Under the pieces are notes generated by a model that was given only the letters and a program-made list of their open reading frames with translations, ran no database searches and was not told where the DNA came from. Source: Pseudoroseomonas cervicalis (lineage in GTDB: Bacteria; Pseudomonadota; Alphaproteobacteria; Acetobacterales; Acetobacteraceae). Taken from it: DNA of 64,000 nucleotides. This document shows positions 13,639 through 22,468 of this stretch, in pieces. Each line of letters opens with the position of its first letter. Within the stretch, counting starts at the first letter, position 1. Position numbers and translations under genes: made by a program. Location: contig NZ_JAUTAJ010000004.1 in NCBI RefSeq assembly GCF_030818485.1, positions 1,963,001-2,027,000 on the forward strand, written 5' to 3'.

Positions 13639-14955
13639 TCAGCCGCCGCGCTGCGCCGCCGGGCCGCGCAGCAGCTCGCGCAGCGCCGGGATCACCAGGC
13701 CGAGCACCGAGACATGCTCGGTCTGCAGCTTCGCCTCCAGCAGCGTGCCGGCGGTGATCTGCGCATTGGGCCCGGCCGAGGTGGTCCAGCGGAAGCCCGA
13801 GGCGGTGGCCGCATCGCGCTCCAGCTCCACCATCATCAGGAAGGGCGGGCCCTCGGCGGTCAGCTTCCGCACCAGCTCGTCATTGCGCAGCATGTGGCGC
13901 AGCTGCTCCGGGCTCGCCGCCACGTCGGAGGTGCGCACCACCCGGCCGCGAATGGCGCCGAACACGTCGCGCCGTACCGAGCTGGGCTCGACCAGCGCCG
14001 TCATGCCGGGCTGGATCTTCTTGCCGTCGCGGGCGGGGACAAACACCGCCGCCACCAGCCGGGTGCCGCCGGGGCGGAACTCGGAAAAGCTCTCATCCAC
14101 CGGCAGCAGGCTGACCAGCGGCGTGTCGAAGCGGATCAAATCGCCGGGGAAGACCTTCAGCTCGGAGACGATGCCGTGCTCGGTGCTGCGCACCCAGGTC
14201 TCGTTGGTGATGCGGTCGCGCAGCCGGTCGATCTGCCGCTCCGCCTGGGCCCTGCGGGTCTGCAGCGCCTGCAGCTCGCGCTCATGCTGGGCCTGCTTCT
14301 CATGGCTGTCGAAGGTGAAGCCGAGCAGCCGGCCCTGCTCGGTGGCGATGCGCTCCAGCACCTGGGCCAGCTCGGCGCGCACCTGCAGGTAGCGCTCGAA
14401 GGTGGTGTGGCCGCTGCGGCGCAGGCTCTCCATGCCGTCGGAGAGCTGGTTCAGCAGCGCGCGCCGGTCCTCCAGCAGGCGCAGGGTCTCGCGCGTCGTC
14501 GCCTCCTGCTGGCGGCGCAGGCTGTCGGACATCTCCAGCGTCTCGGCCTGCAGGGCGCGCACCCGCTCCTCCTCGCGGCGGATCAGCTCCAGCTCGCTCT
14601 CGGCCAGCTTCAGCTCGCTCTGCAGCGCCGGCTGCACCACGCGGGCCACCGGCTGGCCGGGCGCCACGCGCTGCCCGACATCGACCATCATCTCGACGAT
14701 GCGGCCGTCATGATCGGCGGTGACGGTGAATTCCAGCACGCCCTTGGAGCTGAGCACGACGCCGGTGCCGCCCACCTGCAGCGGCACCTGCACGGCGATG
14801 GCGGCGACCACCGTCGCGGCCAGCGCCGCCAGCAGCAGCAGCAGCGCCGCCAGATGGCCGGGCCCCACCAGGCGCAGCCCGCTGGCCAGCTCCTCGGGCC
14901 GGCGCAGCCGGGCCTCGGCCTCGGGGCGGAACAGGGTCGGGCTGCTGCTGCTCAT
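13639..14955 (-). CDS. HlyD-type membrane fusion protein of an NHLP-like export system
   Basis: A 438-residue periplasmic adaptor. A single membrane helix near residues 31-52 (HLAALLLLLAALAATVVAAIAV) is followed by a half-lipoyl segment with VDVGQRVAPGQPVARVV. Next comes a long coiled coil (about residues 115-240, rich in Glu, Arg and Leu), then the second lipoyl and beta-barrel parts (VFPGDLIRFDTPLVSLLPVDES). The architecture and its partners match the NHLM/NHLP bacteriocin-system secretion protein family. Its ATG overlaps the stop of the upstream ABC gene (ATGA). It should link the inner membrane transporter to an outer membrane TolC-like channel, which is not in this window. Confidence 0.88.
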   Translation of the reverse strand: MSSSSPTLFRPEAEARLRRPEELASGLRLVGPGHLAALLLLLAALAATVVAAIAVQVPLQVGGTGVVLSSKGVLEFTVTADHDGRIVEMMVDVGQRVAPGQPVARVVQPALQSELKLAESELELIRREEERVRALQAETLEMSDSLRRQQEATTRETLRLLEDRRALLNQLSDGMESLRRSGHTTFERYLQVRAELAQVLERIATEQGRLLGFTFDSHEKQAQHERELQALQTRRAQAERQIDRLRDRITNETWVRSTEHGIVSELKVFPGDLIRFDTPLVSLLPVDESFSEFRPGGTRLVAAVFVPARDGKKIQPGMTALVEPSSVRRDVFGAIRGRVVRTSDVAASPEQLRHMLRNDELVRKLTAEGPPFLMMVELERDAATASGFRWTTSAGPNAQITAGTLLEAKLQTEHVSVLGLVIPALRELLRGPAAQRGG

Positions 14956-17501
14956 GGCGGGGCTGCCTGCGGCGGGGGGGAAAGGACATCGCGCGGCGGG
15001 CCATTGGCGACCAGCGCGCCGCCCTCCAGCATCAGCACACGATCGGTCTCGGCCCACAGGGCCGGGCGGTGGGCGACGATGATGCGGGTCAGCTTCAGCC
15101 CGTGCAGCGTCGCCATCACCCGCTTCTGCGCCGCGCCGTCCAGCGCGCTCATCGCCTCGTCCAGGATCAGCACGGCGGGCGATTGCGCCAGCGCGCGGGC
15201 GATCAGGATGCGCTGCACCTGGCTCTGCGAGAAGCCGGCCCCGGCCTCGGTCACGGGCGTGCGCAGCCCCATGGGCAGCGCCTTCAGCTCATCGGCGATG
15301 CCGGCCTGCGCGGCGACATGCCAGGCCTCCTCCTCGCCGATGGCGGCGGCGCCGCGGATATTCTCGAAAATGCTGCCCGGGAACAGCCGGCTGTTCTGCA
15401 GCACCAGGCCGAGCCGGCGGGTCAGCTGCCGCCGGCCGATGCCGGCCAGATCATGGCCATCCAGCAGCAGCCGCCCCGATTGCGGCGCCTGCAGCCCGGC
15501 CAGCAGGCTGAGCAGCGTCGACTTGCCGCTGCCCGAGGGGCCGGCCAGCGCCACGAACTCGCCATCGGCGATGGCGAAGCTGACCTGGTCCAGCGCGCGG
15601 CGGGTGCCGTAGAAGAAGCTGACGCCCGCGGCCTCGATGCGGCCCGAGAGCTTCGGCACCGGCGGGCCGGATTGCAGCGGCTCCACCGTGAAGTCGAGCA
15701 GCGGGCGGGCCAGCTTGGCCATGGGCAGCAGGCGGATCAGCCCGGCCGTCGCCTGGGCCAGGCCGCGCCCGGCGCGGATCAGCCGGCCCAGCGCCATGAC
15801 GAAGGCCACCGCCGCGCCGGCGCTGAGGCCGGAGGCGGCGCCGGCATAGGCGAGGGCCGCGAAGCAGGCGGCCAGCAGCAGCGCCTCCCACAGCGGCTCC
15901 GCCACCGGCAGGGCGTTGCCGATGCGCGCCGAGCGCATCAGCCGCGACTGGAAGGCGAGGAAATTCTCGCTCCACTGGGTGAAGGCGCGCCGCTCCAGCC
16001 GGTTGCCGCGCAGCATCGGCATCAGCCGGATCAGGTCGTGCACGAAGGCGAGGACGATGACGTCCATCCGCTCGCCCTCATAGATCGCCTTGAACTGCAG
16101 CCAGCCGACCAAAGCGGTCAGCAGCACCAGCAGCGCCACCATGCCGATGGCGATCAGCCCGGCCTGGGGCGAGATGGCGGCGACCAGCGCGGCGGCGGCC
16201 AGACCCTGGAACAGCGCCAGCAGCCCGGCGCTGGCGCCGCTGATGACGGCGCGGCGCAGCTTCTCCACCGTCTCCATCTCGGTGGCCAGGATCAGGCTGG
16301 TGTTGCCGCGCAGATCGGCCGGCTGCAGCCGCAGCAGCCGGTCCACCATGGCGGCGTGCAGGGTGAGGCCGGCGCGGCCCTGGGCGCGCAGCTCGGCCAG
16401 CTTGCCGATGGCGTGGAAGCCGGTCTCGGCCAGCAGCGCCACCAGCAGCGCCACCAGCAGCTGCGCCAGGAAGGCGGTGTCGGCGGTGTGGACCGCGATA
16501 TTGGTGATCTGCTGCGAGGCGAGCGGCGGCAGCATGGCCAGCAGCGCCGCCGCCAGGCCGCAGGCGGCGACCAGCAGCAGGTCGGCGGTGGCCGCCTGCA
16601 GCCCGAAGCCGAGCAGGTCGCGATAGCGCAGCCTGCCCTGCGGCAGGGTGCGGCAGAAGGCGAACAGCTCCGGCTGCAGCGCGCCCAGCAGGCCCGCATC
16701 CAGCCGGCGCGGGCGCTCCAGCCGGCTGCCCGGCACCACCAGATGCCCGCCGAGCGGGCGCGGCCGCAGCAGCAGCGGCGTGGCCTCCCCCTCCGCCGCG
16801 GCGGTGAAGGCCAGCAGCGGCCCCTCCCCGTCCAGCGTGGCGCCGGGCTCGCGCTGGAAGCGGCGCAGCCGCAGCCCATGCGCCGCGGCGAAGCGTTCCA
16901 GAAATTCGGCCACCGGCTCCTCCGGCAGGCGCGGCACCGGCACCGGCTTGGCGCCGGCCAGCCGGGCCAGCCCCGCCGCCGCCAGGGAGAGCGCATCGCC
17001 GGCCTCGGCGCCCGCGCGGTGGAAGCGCCCGCGCAGCAGCGCGCCATAGCCGGCCAGCGTGGCGCGGAAGCCCTCCTCCTGCGCCACCGGCGACGTGGCG
17101 GGCGGGGCGTCGAGCGCGCCGGCGATGGCGCGCAGCAGCTGGTCGCTGCGCTCGGCCATGCTGTCCTGGGGCGCGGCCGGCGGCAGGCCGAGGCCGGCGG
17201 CCAGCCGCGCCAGCCCCTCCAGCCAGGCCTGCGCCGCCGCGGGATCGAGCCCCGGCAGCAGGGTCAGGGCGCGGCGGGCGCGCAGATGCAGCTCGAGCCC
17301 GGGCGGCGCCGGCAGCAGCTGGCTGCCCGGCTCCAGCACCAGCACCAGGCGCAGCCTGCCATCCTCGCCGCGCAGCAGCAGATCGGCCGGGCCGCCCTGC
17401 AGACGCAGCGGGCCCAGCCCGGCCAGCGCCAGGCCCTGCCGCGCCGCCAGCGCCGGCGGGCCGGCGGGGCTCCCGGGCGGGGGGGCTATGCGCGCGCTCA
17501 T
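14952..17501 (-). CDS. NHLP-type ABC transporter, permease/ATPase subunit with long N-terminal domain
   Basis: An 849-residue subunit. Residues 1-260 are an alanine/leucine/arginine-rich soluble region typical of the NHLP permease/ATPase family. A six-helix ABC transmembrane domain follows (about 300-590), then the nucleotide-binding domain. Walker A is GPSGSGKSTLL, Walker B is VLILDEAMSALD with the catalytic Glu, and the switch His is in IIVAHRP. The ABC signature is abnormal: GFSQSQVQR replaces LSGGQ. This makes it the complement of its partner at 17498-19630. No C39 domain is present. Its start overlaps the partner's stop (ATGA) and its stop overlaps the HlyD start, so the three are tightly coupled. 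Confidence 0.9.
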   Translation of the reverse strand: MSARIAPPPGSPAGPPALAARQGLALAGLGPLRLQGGPADLLLRGEDGRLRLVLVLEPGSQLLPAPPGLELHLRARRALTLLPGLDPAAAQAWLEGLARLAAGLGLPPAAPQDSMAERSDQLLRAIAGALDAPPATSPVAQEEGFRATLAGYGALLRGRFHRAGAEAGDALSLAAAGLARLAGAKPVPVPRLPEEPVAEFLERFAAAHGLRLRRFQREPGATLDGEGPLLAFTAAAEGEATPLLLRPRPLGGHLVVPGSRLERPRRLDAGLLGALQPELFAFCRTLPQGRLRYRDLLGFGLQAATADLLLVAACGLAAALLAMLPPLASQQITNIAVHTADTAFLAQLLVALLVALLAETGFHAIGKLAELRAQGRAGLTLHAAMVDRLLRLQPADLRGNTSLILATEMETVEKLRRAVISGASAGLLALFQGLAAAALVAAISPQAGLIAIGMVALLVLLTALVGWLQFKAIYEGERMDVIVLAFVHDLIRLMPMLRGNRLERRAFTQWSENFLAFQSRLMRSARIGNALPVAEPLWEALLLAACFAALAYAGAASGLSAGAAVAFVMALGRLIRAGRGLAQATAGLIRLLPMAKLARPLLDFTVEPLQSGPPVPKLSGRIEAAGVSFFYGTRRALDQVSFAIADGEFVALAGPSGSGKSTLLSLLAGLQAPQSGRLLLDGHDLAGIGRRQLTRRLGLVLQNSRLFPGSIFENIRGAAAIGEEEAWHVAAQAGIADELKALPMGLRTPVTEAGAGFSQSQVQRILIARALAQSPAVLILDEAMSALDGAAQKRVMATLHGLKLTRIIVAHRPALWAETDRVLMLEGGALVANGPPRDVLSPPPQAAPP

Positions 17502-19630
17502 GCCGGGGCGCGCGGCGGCGCGGCGGCCGCCTCCGCCGCCTGATAGGCGGCCTCGACATCGAAGGGCAGCAGCCCCTGCTTCTGCAGGAAGAACGCCCGG
17601 TCGAGATGGCGGATGGCGCTGGCCCGGTTGGTCAGCAGCACCAGGGTGATGCCGCGGCGGCGCAGATTCTGCAGCAGCCGCGCCTCCACCGCCTCGTCCA
17701 GCTGGCTGGTGGCATCGTCCAGCACCAGCAGGCGCGGCGCCTCGACCAGAGCGCGGGCGATGGCCAGGCGCTGCCGCTCGCCACCGCTGAGGCCGCTGCC
17801 ACCCTCCCCCAGCAGCCCGTCCAGCCCGCCGGGCCGGCCCTCGACCACCGCGGCCAGCTCGGCATCGGCCAGCGCCCGGGCGATGGCGGCGGCGGGGGCG
17901 CCCGGATTCCAGCTGGTCAGCGCGTTGCGCAGCGAGCCGGCGGGGAAGAAGGGGCTCTGCTCGACATAGCCGATGCCATTCGCCCCGGCCTGCCAGGCCG
18001 GGCCGCCGGGGCCCGCCACCTCGAACAGCAGCCGGCCCTCGCGCGGCGGCAGCAGCCCGGCCAGCAGCGCGGCCAGGGTGGTCTTGCCGCTGGCGGCGCC
18101 GCCCATGATGCCGACCGCCTCGCCCGGCGCCAGCCGCAGCTGCAGCCCGGCGAAGAGCGGCGCGGCATTCGGATGCGCATAGCCCACCCCCTGCAGCCAC
18201 AGCCCGCCGGTGGCGGGCGGCGGCTCGGCCTCGGGGGCCGGCGCGGCGGGCGCGTCCAGCACATCGCCCAGCCGGCCCAGCGCGGCATTGGCCTGGCCGA
18301 GCGCCGTGCCGATGCCGGTGAAGGCGCCGAGCGCCGCCGAGAACAGCCCGGCCAGCGCCAGGAACCCCACCAGCGTGCCCACCGTCAGCTCGGTCTCCAT
18401 GACCAGCAGCGCGCCGGCGCCGAGCACCGCCAGCGTCATGACGCGGCTGCTGGCATAGGGCAGCATGGAGAGCAGCTGCAGCGTGCGGCCGCTGCGCTGC
18501 TCGGCATTCATCAGCCGGATCTCGGCCTCGACCATGCGGTTGAACAGCACCGTCTCGCCGCCGCCGGCGCGCGCCTGCTCCAGCAGCGCGGCCCCCTGCA
18601 CCGCGGCCGCATGCGCCTGGCCGGAGATCATCTGCAGCTGCCCCGCCTCCTCCCGCACCCGGCGCGACAGGGCGCGCAGCAGCAGCAGCTCGGCCAGGGC
18701 CAGCGCCACCACCAGCGCGGTCAGCAGCGGCTCGTAGAGCAGCATGATGGCGGCATAGCCCAGCATGGCCAGGCCATTGACCAGCAGCTGCACCACCGGC
18801 CCCGACACCGCCTGGGCCAGCTGGGCTGCGAATTGCGTGCGGGTCGAGATCTCGACGGCGCTGCGGCGGGTGAAGAAATCCTGCGGCAGGGCGAAGAGCC
18901 GCCAGACGAAGCGGGCCGAGACCACGGCATTCACCTTGGTGCGCAGCAGCAGCAGGCTGCGCTGATAGGCGGCGCTCAGCAGCGCGTTGAAGGCGCCGAG
19001 CGCCACCAGCGCGCCGAGCAGCGGCAGCAGCCAATCGGCATGGCCCTGCACCAGGTAATCGTCGACGAAGATCTGGATCAGCCCGGGCAGCAGCGCGCCG
19101 AGGAAGACCAGCATCAGGCTGGTCAGCACGATGGCGGCGAAGGCGGCGGCGGACCCCTCCAGCTGCGGCAGCAGCCGGCGCAGCACCGGACGCGGCGCGG
19201 CGGTGCGGCGGAACCCGGGCCCGGGCGCGAAGCTCAGCGTGATGCCGGTGAAGGCGCTGCCGAATTCCTCCGCCCCCACCCGCCTGCGGCCATGCGCCGG
19301 GTCGTTGATGACGTAGCCGCCGCCGCGCACCGCCTCCAGCACGACGAAATGGTCGAAATTCCAGAACAGGATCTGCGGCAGGGGCAGGCTGGCCAGCGCC
19401 TCAGGGTCGCGGCGATAGGCCTCGGCGGTCAGGCCGCGGGCGCGGGCGGCGGCCAGCAGATCGGCGGCCGAGGTGCCATCGCGCGAGACGCCGCAGCTGT
19501 CGCGCAGGCTGTCCAGGCTCTCCCACCGGCCATGCGCGGCCAGCACCATGGCCAGGCAGGCGGCGCCGCATTCGGCGGCCTCCATCTGCAGGATGGTCGG
19601 CACGCGGCGGCGCCCGGCCAGGCGCCTCAT
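17498..19630 (-). CDS. C39 peptidase-containing ABC transporter (NHLP-type PCAT)
   Basis: A 710-residue protein that removes double-glycine leaders and exports the product. The N-terminal C39 protease is complete: Gln15 and Cys21 in QMEAAECGAA, His94 in FDHFVVL, and Asp110 in VINDPAHG. A six-helix transmembrane domain follows (about 155-440), then the ATPase. Walker A is GGAASGKTTL and the signature LSGGERQRLAIARAL is normal. However, the Walker B glutamate is Asp (LDDATSQLD) and the switch His is Asn (LLTNRAS), so this nucleotide site should be catalytically weak. It pairs with the subunit that has the opposite defect. It lies directly downstream of a large gene encoding a double-glycine leader protein, the probable substrate. 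Confidence 0.92.
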   Translation of the reverse strand: MRRLAGRRRVPTILQMEAAECGAACLAMVLAAHGRWESLDSLRDSCGVSRDGTSAADLLAAARARGLTAEAYRRDPEALASLPLPQILFWNFDHFVVLEAVRGGGYVINDPAHGRRRVGAEEFGSAFTGITLSFAPGPGFRRTAAPRPVLRRLLPQLEGSAAAFAAIVLTSLMLVFLGALLPGLIQIFVDDYLVQGHADWLLPLLGALVALGAFNALLSAAYQRSLLLLRTKVNAVVSARFVWRLFALPQDFFTRRSAVEISTRTQFAAQLAQAVSGPVVQLLVNGLAMLGYAAIMLLYEPLLTALVVALALAELLLLRALSRRVREEAGQLQMISGQAHAAAVQGAALLEQARAGGGETVLFNRMVEAEIRLMNAEQRSGRTLQLLSMLPYASSRVMTLAVLGAGALLVMETELTVGTLVGFLALAGLFSAALGAFTGIGTALGQANAALGRLGDVLDAPAAPAPEAEPPPATGGLWLQGVGYAHPNAAPLFAGLQLRLAPGEAVGIMGGAASGKTTLAALLAGLLPPREGRLLFEVAGPGGPAWQAGANGIGYVEQSPFFPAGSLRNALTSWNPGAPAAAIARALADAELAAVVEGRPGGLDGLLGEGGSGLSGGERQRLAIARALVEAPRLLVLDDATSQLDEAVEARLLQNLRRRGITLVLLTNRASAIRHLDRAFFLQKQGLLPFDVEAAYQAAEAAAAPPRAPA

Positions 19631-19713
19631 CGGCGGGACCGGCCGGCCGGCCGCGCCGCCGCCTCAGCGTCGGTGGCCGCCATGGCCGTGGGCGAGGCCG
19701 GCGGCACGCGCCC

Positions 19714-20235
19714 TCAGTGCCGCGGCCCGGCGGGAGGCTCGGCGCCGCCGATGGCGAGCTGGCTGCGCAGCATGTCGAACCCCGCCGCCACCTGCTCCTC
19801 CGTGGCGCGGCCGGCCATCGCCGCCTGTTCCACCGCGCCGCAGGCGGCCATCAGCACCGTGTCCGGATAGGCGGGCGGCTTGTCGCCGCGGCGCTCGGCC
19901 AGCTGCTTCTCCAGGTCGATCACGGTGAGGAAGGCGGTGATGCGGTTCTTGCCCTCGTTCAGCGCATTCTCGAAATAGCTCACCGTCAGGCGGCGGCGCG
20001 CCTGCAGATAGGCGTCCTGGATGGCCTGCTCGGGCGGGGTGCCGTCCACCACGGCCTGCACCAGGGGCTCCTTGGCCAGCACGTTCAGCCAGCCGGCCTG
20101 GGATTCGGACCAGCCTTCCAGCCGGGCGCGCGCCAGGATCTGCTCGCGCGACAGCGCATCCAGCTTGCGCAGCGCCTCGGCCATGCGCGCTTCCTTCGCC
20201 GTGTCGCCCTGCGGTCCTTCGGTCGGGTCGGTCAT
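19714..20235 (-). CDS. Small helical protein of the secretion operon, function unknown
   Basis: A 173-residue, charged, mostly helical protein without signal peptide or membrane segment. I do not recognise a family. It sits between the putative secreted protein (37 bases upstream) and the transporter genes (83 bases downstream), in the same direction, so it is probably co-transcribed. GAGAG lies upstream of the ATG at 20235. Possible jobs are a cytoplasmic chaperone for the large substrate, a regulator of export, or an immunity protein. The lack of a membrane segment argues against immunity to a pore-former acting from outside. It has no double-glycine motif at its N-terminus, so it is unlikely to be a substrate itself. 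Confidence 0.72.
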   Translation of the reverse strand: MTDPTEGPQGDTAKEARMAEALRKLDALSREQILARARLEGWSESQAGWLNVLAKEPLVQAVVDGTPPEQAIQDAYLQARRRLTVSYFENALNEGKNRITAFLTVIDLEKQLAERRGDKPPAYPDTVLMAACGAVEQAAMAGRATEEQVAAGFDMLRSQLAIGGAEPPAGPRH

Positions 20236-20272
20236 CGCTCAGCTCTCTCGTTCTTGCGGCGGTGCGGGCGGA

Positions 20273-22468
20273 TCAGCTGAAGAAGCCGGTGATGGCCGAC
20301 CAGGCATAGATGCCGACGGCCGCGGGCAGCAGGACCGGGTTCTCCTCGAGAACGTGGTTCGCCTTCTCGATGTTCTGGGCGGCCTTCTCGTAGCTGCCCT
20401 TGATCTCGATGTCGTAGGTGCCGCCGATGCCGAGATAGCCGCCGATGCCGAGCTTGATGTCCACCTCGCCATCCTTGATCGTGACATCGGGCTCGAACTT
20501 CACGCCGATGGCGCCGGCCTTGAAATGCCCGGTGGCGCTGGCGCCGTGCCCGTCATCGGTGAAGCCGCCGGCCGAGACATCGGCGCCGACGCCGAGGCTG
20601 GCCTCCGCCCCGCCGCCGATCTTGGCCTTCACCACCCCCTTGGTCGGGTCGAAGGTGACCTCCGCCTCGGCATGGGCGGAGGCGCGGGCCTCGGCGAAGA
20701 CGGTGGCGCTGACGGTGGTGGTGACATCGCCCACCTTCACATCCACCGCGCCGGTGGCCGAGACGCTGATCTCGGCCTTCGCCTCGACCTTGGCGACCAG
20801 CCCGTCATAGCCGAGATGGAAACCCGCCTCCGCCCCCACCGAGCCCTGCGCGGCGACGGTGACCGAGCCGGTCACCTCGGCATCGCCGATGCCGACCGAG
20901 GCGGAGGCCCCGGCCTCGGCATGCGCCTCCGCCTTGGCCGAGGCCTCGGCATAGATGCCGGCGGCATTGACGCTGAAGCTCGCCTCGCCGCCGGCGCTCG
21001 CCTCGGCATAGGTCTTGGTGGCGGTGCCGGAGATCAGCTTGCCATCGGCGTCGCGCGCCTCGGTGATGACGTGCTCGCCCGCCTCGGCCTTGACCGCGTG
21101 GATGATGCGGCCGCCGCTGCCGAGCTCCGAGCTCCAGCTCTCGCTGCCGCTGGTCTCGGTGGTCTGCGCCAGGCTGTGCTGGGTGCGCACCTTGCCATCC
21201 TCGAGCTTCACCGGGTCGGCATCGGTGACGCCGCCGGAGGTGACGCGCTCATGGATGGTGTTGCTGTAATTGTCATGCGCCTTGGCATCGGCGCGCGCCG
21301 CCTCGTTCAGCCCTTCCGAGACCGCCTTGTTCAGGAAGCTGGTGGTGCCGCGGCGCAGCTCATCCGCGCGTTCCTGGGCGTGCTCGGCCTCGGCCGCCTT
21401 CTGCGCGGCGGATTGCGCGGCGGCGTCGACCCGGTTGGCCAGCTCCGCCTCGGCATGCCCGAGCTTCTCCTGCGCGGCGTCGATGCGCTGCTGGCCCTGC
21501 TGCGCGACGCTGTCCTTGTGCTCGTCGACGCGGTCCTGGATCGCCTCCAGATGGCGGATGCTGGCGGCGTGGTTGGCCACCGCGTCGTCATGCGCCGCCT
21601 GGCGCGCCTTGATGGCGGCCTCGTCGCCCAGCCCCTTGGCCTGCTGCAGCAGCGCATGGGTGGTCGCCGCGGTCTCGGCGGTGGTGTTGTGCAGCGCCTG
21701 CGCCTCGCGCAGCAGATGGTCGGCCGGGGCGTTGGCCTCGGCGCGCTCCTTGATCACCGATTGCTGCACTTGGCCCAGATGCTCATGCGCGCCGCTGACC
21801 TCCTGGCCGGCGGCATGGATCCCCTGCACCGTGGCCGCGTCATGCGAGCCCTCGGGCCGGTATTCGCCGCCCTGGCCGAGCGCGGCGGGGTCGGGGCCGA
21901 TGCGCGTGGCGCTCTCGGCCTTGCGCTCCCACTCCCAGAGATGGCGGCCGGCCTCCAGGCCATCGCCCTTGATGTCGCGGAATTCCTGGATGCGCGGATC
22001 GTCGCCGGGCTCGGGCTCCTTGGCGGCCGCGTCGGCGGCCGGGTGGCCGGCCGCGGCGTCATGCGCCGGCGCCTGCGGGATGGGCGCCTCGATCTTCACC
22101 ACGCCATCGGCGGTGGAGCCGGCGGTGGGCACGGTGATGGCGATCTCGACCCGCGTCTCGGCGCCGGATTTGCCGAAGCCCTCCAGCGCCGGCTCGCGCG
22201 CCACCGGATGCTCGGTCGGCGTCGCGTCGATCTTCACCACGCCGGCGAGCGCCGCCGCGCGCAGCCCGGCGGCGTCGGGATCCTGCGCGGCCGGCAGCTT
22301 GCCCGGGTCCAGGGTGGCGGCGCTGCCCGCCTCGCCGCCCACGGTCAGGGCGATGGCGCGCTCGCCATCCAGCGGCGGCGCCTGCTCGGGGCGGGTGCCG
22401 CCGACGATGCGGCGCAGCACATCCTCGGGCAGCGGGGCATCCGGCTGGTCGTCGGTCCTGCTGGTCAT
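20273..22468 (-). CDS. Large double-glycine-leader protein, putative secreted substrate of the adjacent C39/NHLP exporter
   Basis: A 731-residue protein with no cysteine. Residues 1-24 form a double-glycine leader: Leu at -12, Leu at -7, Ile at -4 and GG at -2/-1 (LPEDVLRRIVGG). Residues 25-170 are Pro/Ala-rich and contain a repeated GVVKI(D/E)A element. Residues about 170-400 are helical and alanine/glutamate-rich, likely a coiled coil. Residues 430-690 alternate small and charged residues (ASAKAEAHAEAGASASVGIG and similar), suggesting a repetitive beta structure. The C-terminus is hydrophobic (PVLLPAAVGIYAWSAITGFF). RTX repeats are absent. The start at 22468 has GGAGG upstream. The role could be a protein bacteriocin, contact toxin, adhesin or surface-layer fibre; sequence does not decide. 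Confidence 0.85.
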   Translation of the reverse strand: MTSRTDDQPDAPLPEDVLRRIVGGTRPEQAPPLDGERAIALTVGGEAGSAATLDPGKLPAAQDPDAAGLRAAALAGVVKIDATPTEHPVAREPALEGFGKSGAETRVEIAITVPTAGSTADGVVKIEAPIPQAPAHDAAAGHPAADAAAKEPEPGDDPRIQEFRDIKGDGLEAGRHLWEWERKAESATRIGPDPAALGQGGEYRPEGSHDAATVQGIHAAGQEVSGAHEHLGQVQQSVIKERAEANAPADHLLREAQALHNTTAETAATTHALLQQAKGLGDEAAIKARQAAHDDAVANHAASIRHLEAIQDRVDEHKDSVAQQGQQRIDAAQEKLGHAEAELANRVDAAAQSAAQKAAEAEHAQERADELRRGTTSFLNKAVSEGLNEAARADAKAHDNYSNTIHERVTSGGVTDADPVKLEDGKVRTQHSLAQTTETSGSESWSSELGSGGRIIHAVKAEAGEHVITEARDADGKLISGTATKTYAEASAGGEASFSVNAAGIYAEASAKAEAHAEAGASASVGIGDAEVTGSVTVAAQGSVGAEAGFHLGYDGLVAKVEAKAEISVSATGAVDVKVGDVTTTVSATVFAEARASAHAEAEVTFDPTKGVVKAKIGGGAEASLGVGADVSAGGFTDDGHGASATGHFKAGAIGVKFEPDVTIKDGEVDIKLGIGGYLGIGGTYDIEIKGSYEKAAQNIEKANHVLEENPVLLPAAVGIYAWSAITGFFS
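22397..22468 (-). other. Double-glycine leader coding segment (codons 1-24)
   Basis: These codons encode the N-terminal leader ending in Gly23-Gly24. The hydrophobic spacing (L at -12, L at -7, I at -4) agrees with peptides cut by C39 proteases such as that encoded at 17498-19630. Predicted cleavage leaves a mature protein starting Thr-Arg-Pro-Glu. The usual Glu at -8 is Val here. Confidence 0.7.

Follow-up and report, generated by a model that had tools for sequence, protein, structure and literature searches.

A five-gene locus of Pseudoroseomonas cervicalis as a candidate NHLM-derived type I system for a large protein with a double-glycine leader

NHLM exporters were defined together with peptides of the NHLP and Nif11 types, and the export system has been described as more widespread than its NHLP family (Haft et al. 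2010, PMC2887384). Legionella systems of the NHLP type have been described as putative bacteriocin transporters (PMC6959600). Five consecutive genes on the minus strand of a 64,000-nucleotide stretch of Pseudoroseomonas cervicalis DNA (contig NZ_JAUTAJ010000004.1, positions 1,963,001 to 2,027,000; the whole stretch is called the window) place a cassette resembling these exporters behind the genes of a large protein and a smaller companion. They run from 22468 to 13639 in the order substrate, companion, C39 peptidase with ATP-binding cassette (C39-ABC), second ABC protein (ABC2) and HlyD-type adaptor:

20273..22468, minus strand: 731-residue protein with a double-glycine (GG) leader (P0001), the candidate substrate, from its open reading frame (ORF) and translation; at least nine relatives, all with the leader
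19714..20235, minus strand: 173-residue companion (P0002), cytosolic-looking; at least 78 relatives and a 21-member alignment
17498..19630, minus strand: C39-ABC exporter subunit of 710 amino acids (aa), NHLM_ABC1-like, by TIGR03796, PF03412, PF00664 and PF00005
14952..17501, minus strand: ABC2, the second subunit without C39, NHLM_ABC2-like, 849 aa, by TIGR03797
13639..14955, minus strand: HlyD-type adaptor of the NHLM family, 438 aa, by TIGR03794

Sequence comparison gives good support to the large protein as the substrate of a dedicated C39 export system: its leader is conserved, the gene order recurs in a second genome, substrate and companion occur in the same two genomes of the order, and the companion, used as sole query, retrieved a similar though truncated module from another alphaproteobacterial family. 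The fuller reading, in which the five genes work together as a dedicated type I system of NHLM origin for a large β-rich, probably surface-associated protein with a cytosolic partner, draws on sequence and predicted structure, and we put its chances at about even.

The locus resembles the NHLM cassette (TIGR03794, TIGR03796, TIGR03797) in combining a C39-ABC protein, an ABC protein without C39 and a HlyD protein that scores above the family cut-off, and is unlike it in that the ABC proteins score below their cut-offs and sit on a long stem, no NHLP or Nif11 neighbour was recognised and the substrate has some 700 residues. The Cdz system of Caulobacter has glycine-zipper substrates of 84-86 aa, which are surface-bound contact killers, and an immunity protein with three predicted membrane segments (PMC5380434). 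Type I export of leader-bearing proteins in an alphaproteobacterium, possibly with retention at the surface, is common to Cdz and the window, whereas the window has a 731-residue substrate and a soluble-looking partner, with no small glycine-zipper pair and no membrane immunity protein. The EbfG proteins of Synechococcus are small secreted proteins with a GG motif that have been located in the matrix or at the surface of the cells (PMC4997328, PMC9981879). They share the GG motif with the window substrate, which unlike them is large. PteB is said to be the peptidase transporter of the EbfG proteins, and we know of no companion family for EbfG or PteB. RTX type I systems carry large proteins through an exporter of ABC and HlyD proteins and use a C-terminal signal; the ABC and HlyD proteins are common to both, whereas the window substrate has an N-terminal leader and no RTX repeat match. 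A literature search by titles and abstract openings found nothing on this substrate class, with other wordings and most subscription papers outside its coverage.

Gene order and coordinates are those of an earlier note made from the sequence of this DNA, as are the leader and the domains; what had to be corrected is the number of ATGA overlaps, given there as three. Two are present, between C39-ABC and ABC2 (17498-17501) and between ABC2 and HlyD (14952-14955), while the companion and C39-ABC genes are separated by a gap of 83 bp and substrate and companion by 37 bp. All five genes are kept when genes are picked by codon usage, with a model trained on these five and two other window genes that gives no independent support. 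The lack of a small NHLP- or Nif11-type precursor at the operon, also asserted earlier, is borne out: neither of the two non-exporter genes matches such NCBIfam models, and none was found among the mapped ORFs of at least 40 aa. No peptide-modifying gene was recognised by eye on the gene maps of the operon.

The canonical short leader on which the substrate assignment turns is present as described, with L-12, L-7, I-4 and GG:

22397..22468, minus strand: 24-residue double-glycine leader ending LPEDVLRRIVGG, from the translation and strict pattern scans

It reads MTSRTDDQPDAPLPEDVLRRIVGG up to the cut point, after which the protein continues with TRPEQ. The substrate is cysteine-free as claimed (0 Cys; 0, 1 or 3 in relatives). 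Searching with the full-length substrate returned one relative and with residues 500-731 alone nine; about 8,000 candidates were scored in each of the substrate and companion database searches, and the counts of relatives are lower bounds. Relatives lacking the GG leader, which the earlier note would have held against a dedicated system, did not turn up, as all nine relatives found carry it in spite of a variable middle region.

Of the 250 genomes of the order, two yielded the substrate and two the companion, with four candidates scored per genome in the substrate search, so that distant relatives may be missed. These are the same two genomes, the window's own and that of Pseudoroseomonas aerophila NBRC 108923 (G166), which has the exporter in the same gene order together with one extra companion. 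Local identity between the two loci is 70-79% for the exporter, 61% for the companion and 47% for the best segment of the substrate. At genus level the substrate is found in 2 of 17 genomes. Exporter neighbourhoods were read for two of the nine substrate relatives, and in four of the nine, linkage of substrate and companion is suggested by identical longest-contig sizes (4589, 22861, 3918 and 13989). In P. aerophila, the HlyD gene is followed on the same strand by a gene for a 1328-aa protein (L037:561-4547) that is absent from this place in the window; the start of this protein recalls, by eye only, peptide-synthetase-like enzymes.

The strongest argument for one module comes from outside the family Acetobacteraceae, where a search made with the companion only turned up a GG-leader protein together with an NHLM-type exporter. 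The companion profile, run across the class, matched 2 of 385 genomes, one being that of the window and the other G618 (E 4.5e-6), and in a six-frame ORF control with the same model G618 scored 7.2e-9 vs 0.55 for the best reversed decoy. The relative was found by a model that does not contain it; the score from a model that includes it is circular and was not used. In gene direction, its neighbourhood holds an ABC1 fragment that borders the end of the contig, ABC2, a 382-aa GG-leader protein and the companion relative. NHLM_micro_ABC1 (TIGR03796) is the best NCBIfam match of the fragment, with 359 bits over profile positions 392-709, and ABC2 matches NHLM_micro_ABC2 (TIGR03797) with 627 bits (cut-off 709). 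The 382-aa protein has the leader LNEELLQGITGG and a β alternation z of 5.2. Further order-level searches for companion relatives found none of 17 around G269 and one of nine around G618 (G618 itself).

The exporter was called NHLP-type in the earlier note, which holds for the HlyD protein and does not hold at the family cut-offs for the two ABC genes. HlyD passes TIGR03794 (NHLM_micro_HlyD) with 243.7 bits vs a cut-off of 156.2. The best NCBIfam match of C39-ABC is TIGR03796 (NHLM_micro_ABC1) with 622.3 of 853.3 bits, and that of ABC2 is TIGR03797 (NHLM_micro_ABC2) with 459.4 of 709.4 bits. The composition is that of the cassette, with two ABC subunits, one of them with C39, adjoining HlyD. 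The peptidase domain of C39-ABC is intact:

19220..19603, minus strand: C39 peptidase domain, residues 10-137 of C39-ABC, PF03412 E 1.3e-34

Reading of the translation finds Q15, C21, H94 and D110, which we take to be the catalytic residues of the peptidase. A class-wide TIGR03796 search placed 24 rows above the window protein, at 826.5-1089.9 bits, 10 of which are likewise below the cut-off. When 37 C39-ABC proteins from fetched loci are placed in a tree, the window and G166 proteins, 71% identical to each other, pair with full support; their stem, set among NHLM proteins, measures 1.61 changes per site. The tree has a midpoint root and eight poorly resolved forks, and the window protein is among six rows with deviating amino-acid make-up. 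G410 and G365, next below the window by TIGR03796 score, were rejected as close kin, having 28-43% local identity and standing apart in the tree. As HlyD passes its cut-off, the ABC proteins do not and the stem is long, we regard the exporter as a specialised branch derived from the NHLM family and not as a strict member. A channel is available though not linked, as four TolC-type (OEP) genes above cut-off are present at other places in the genome, which also has two more NHLM HlyD genes above cut-off. The earlier note had also looked to an NHLP precursor elsewhere as the finding that would overturn its view; the genome has no NHLP leader above cut-off, with Nif11-type precursors not searched genome-wide. 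One weak NHLP-leader match (31.5 of 50.9 bits) was rejected, as the protein looks like a subunit of the nitrile hydratase enzyme itself and carries a Cys motif that is presumably the motif of that enzyme.

The companion belongs to a family of its own, with at least 78 relatives in the profile search, 77 of which have E values of 2.3e-30 or lower; among the sources named are Bosea, Methylobacterium, Microvirga and a Xanthobacteraceae bacterium. Across 21 aligned members GWSxSQAxW and AFLTVxDLExQ are invariant, and both motifs are shared by the two types told apart by reading the alignment, of about 170 and 155 residues, the shorter of which starts with a Pro-rich stretch. G166 carries both types in tandem and the window one. 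No Pfam family was matched at E 0.01 by any of the 21 members, the companion matching DUF6623 below cut-off (E 0.059), and relatives on viral contigs were not found. None of the seven members tested has a membrane-like stretch, and no leader was seen in the companion by eye. Its sequence is more readily read as that of a soluble partner than as that of a protein giving immunity to a membrane toxin. Since it has neither membrane segments nor leader, has paired paralogues and is part of the module, the companion is most likely a dedicated cytosolic chaperone or pilot.

The mature substrate is predicted, with modest confidence, to have the helical middle and β half that had been read from its sequence, followed by a hydrophobic C-terminus:

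21371..21844, minus strand: two long predicted helices, coiled-coil-like, residues 209-366 (AlphaFold2, helices 209-280 and 283-366)
20393..21280, minus strand: amphipathic β-meander, residues 397-692 (models with nine strands of 21-26 residues and shorter ones)
20279..20389, minus strand: hydrophobic C-terminal helices, residues 694-730 (predicted secondary structure, pLDDT <50; hydropathy maximum)

In the helical hairpin pLDDT is 60-80 over residues 231-340 and about 30-53 at both ends, and in the β region values of 85-94 are limited to about the first third. Alternation in the β region is 1.137 vs 0.567 +- 0.081 in shuffles (z 7.1), and z is 4.9-8.4 in all 12 regions tested, P0014, P0015 and P0018 not being among them. 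One face of the long strands carries small or aliphatic residues and the opposite face charged or polar ones, a pattern that in the models would fit a sheet that is tightly packed or one that faces a membrane. The best 19-residue Kyte-Doolittle window reaches 1.67 at residue 712. No Pfam or NCBIfam family was matched above cut-off, the sole Pfam match being sub-threshold and to a non-RTX family, and the nonapeptide (RTX) repeats of PF00353 were not found by Pfam. Plasmid matches were absent for P0001, P0019 and P0002, PADLOC returned nothing for seven of seven proteins and PHROGs one weak match, for P0019. In a sequence search of solved structures, the companion profile matched nothing and the substrate profile three weak, unrelated-looking entries. 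Foldseek against the PDB gave no match below 1e-3 for the whole model and one for the β part (EspP, 6e-4), and against viral models six below 1e-3 with TM-scores of at most 0.37; neither result is relied on.

Homology of the β domain with proteins of two other loci, L036 and L038, was considered after a first hhalign probability of 81.7 (E 1.1e-5) and was weakened by reversed controls. An alignment of three gave E 1.3e-4 forward vs 3.4e-3 reversed, P0021 alone 1.6e-5 vs 3.3e-5, P0022 with P0023 0.013 vs 0.041 and P0102 0.024 vs 0.057; block shuffles were all at 0.12 or worse. In BLAST without low-complexity masking, P0102 matched P0023 at E 1e-6 and P0001 at 0.06. The match of P0019 with eight other family members is firm (E 8e-18). 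Because the reversed controls come close to the real match, we take the β domains of the window, L036, L038 and G618 to be similar in kind without asserting a common origin. The L036 protein (L036:7097-8446) has a GG leader and a β-like half, then a long Ala/Glu/Lys-rich repeat ending KKIKKKFRF.

A mechanism can be proposed from these parts. The companion would bind the precursor in the cytosol and keep the chain soluble and export-competent, after which the leader would dock in the C39 domain and be cut behind the GG, as the motif and the catalytic residues suggest. The two ABC proteins and HlyD, with a TolC-type channel encoded elsewhere, would thread the unfolded chain out, giving a mature protein that starts with TRPEQ. 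Outside, the C-terminal half may fold as a long amphipathic β-meander, attaching to the cell surface or self-associating, and the helical hairpin may space this meander from its anchor or target; both steps draw on a partly confident model.

Several results weigh against this account of an NHLM-derived system with a surface-associated product. Both ABC proteins fall below their NHLM cut-offs, and homology of the β domains between loci is weakened by the controls. Model confidence is low (pLDDT 49.6 for the whole, 66.1 for the β part and <50 at the C-terminus), and no known surface anchor was recognised. Full operons were read in two cases (window and G166) along with few companion neighbourhoods, and absences carry little weight where the candidates scored per genome were few. 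At G618, the C39 part lies outside the visible ABC1 fragment, the contig piece showed no HlyD and the companion keeps 10 of 24 invariant family positions; these weak points are offset by the matches to NHLM models and the decoy control. Each outcome has a precedent, the GG-motif matrix proteins of Synechococcus for a surface or matrix role and the contact killers of Caulobacter for a toxin. We lean slightly towards the surface or matrix role, given a soluble-looking companion and the lack of any visible toxin domain. Were the protein a bacteriocin-like or contact toxin, its hairpin would contact a target cell, strands and C-terminus would insert into the membrane and the companion would be the immunity protein. 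This is the main rival, which we consider less likely: the companion, unlike CdzI, lacks a membrane-like stretch, no toxin or defence family was matched in NCBIfam, Pfam or PADLOC, and long helices reach such Z values in structure comparison without kinship, the root-mean-square deviation to barrels being 2.8 to about 13 Å.

The companion could also be neither chaperone nor immunity protein and instead a second, leaderless secreted or regulatory component, as its tandem paralogues in G166, and apparently in several database matches with equal longest-contig sizes, and the Pro-rich start of the shorter type might suggest. The same protein shows no leader by eye and no membrane-like stretch in seven of seven members, and its conserved core suggests a fixed binding partner, which makes such a role improbable. 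It is very unlikely that the exporter serves an unlinked small precursor with the large protein as a bystander carrying a chance GG motif. NHLM exporters were defined with NHLP and Nif11-type peptides (PMC2887384), and the genome has two further NHLM systems and was not searched throughout for Nif11-type precursors; against this stand the leader kept in nine of nine relatives despite the variable middle, the recurring operon order, the absence of an above-cut-off NHLP leader from the genome and of any peptide-modifying gene recognised by eye. The dedicated system with a probably surface-associated product is the reading that we retain.

Leaders of this kind also occur at other NHLM loci of the Acetobacterales. 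NHLM-type HlyD proteins above cut-off were found in 16 of 250 genomes, giving 19 loci, all of which were scanned for the strict pattern L....[LM]..[VI].GG within 12-60 residues of a start. It was matched 16 times in 135,454 bases at most 4 kb from the exporter vs 0 times in 147,811 bases farther away (binomial P 7.5e-6), and twice in 102,733 bases inside exporter genes. Near-exporter leaders are present at 11 of the 19 loci; three of the 16 matches look spurious by eye (window 22283 plus strand, L037 13242 plus strand, L048 14440 plus strand), and 13 at 10 loci are left without them. At L048 HlyD alone was located (two TAG codons), so the exporter span is short there. The mature parts vary and are β-alternating in the window, L037, L036 and L038.

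GG-leader proteins of about 200-350 residues lie beside NHLM exporters at L040:8732-9358, L042:513-1139 and L044:8010-9035, with RTX repeats found by PF00353 in L040 (E 1.8e-36) and by reading in L042 and L044. Pairs of glycine-rich GG-leader peptides of 90-102 aa at L046:11146-11827 and L047:97-757 recall CdzC/CdzD of Caulobacter. At the second NHLM exporter of the window's own genome (L035:15788-17030), two adjoining helical-looking GG-leader proteins of 145 and 235 aa have the leaders LPEDALEQVHGG and LPEDALELVHGG and weak type III translocon matches (SctB 27.3 bits, cut-off 37; SseC E 0.0012). Beside the third, and in relatives, there is a conserved protein of about 100 aa (L034:8664-8975; also L039, L049 and L106), whose leader of about 80 residues ending IAAG recalls the Nif11 type; it has no NCBIfam match, and its Pfam matches are weak and unrelated. 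L041:8070-9525 may be a modified-peptide cluster: an 82-aa GG-leader peptide has as neighbours an NHLM exporter and a 361-aa protein whose ATP-grasp match is faint (PF14397, E 0.029). L092:579-5119 looks like a multi-precursor peptide locus, with six short precursors that have near-identical SKLSESDLQAVAGG-like leaders and varied short cores, and an NHLM exporter alongside.

We tentatively suggest that the NHLM exporter family, known for ribosomal peptide natural products, has become a general secretion route for unmodified GG-leader proteins in the Acetobacteraceae and in one or more further families of Alphaproteobacteria. Among these proteins would be a new, very large β-meander class with its own cytosolic partner family, whose members may assemble on the surface and insert into neighbouring cells. 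The locus offers a testable system in which a C39 exporter would handle a long sheet-forming chain, with a partner family that has no Pfam entry. If the suggestion is true, "bacteriocin exporter" cassettes also carry proteins of several hundred residues, and loci may have been mislabelled and their substrates missed. This would widen the view of the cargo of an exporter type that has been tied to small peptide antibiotics.

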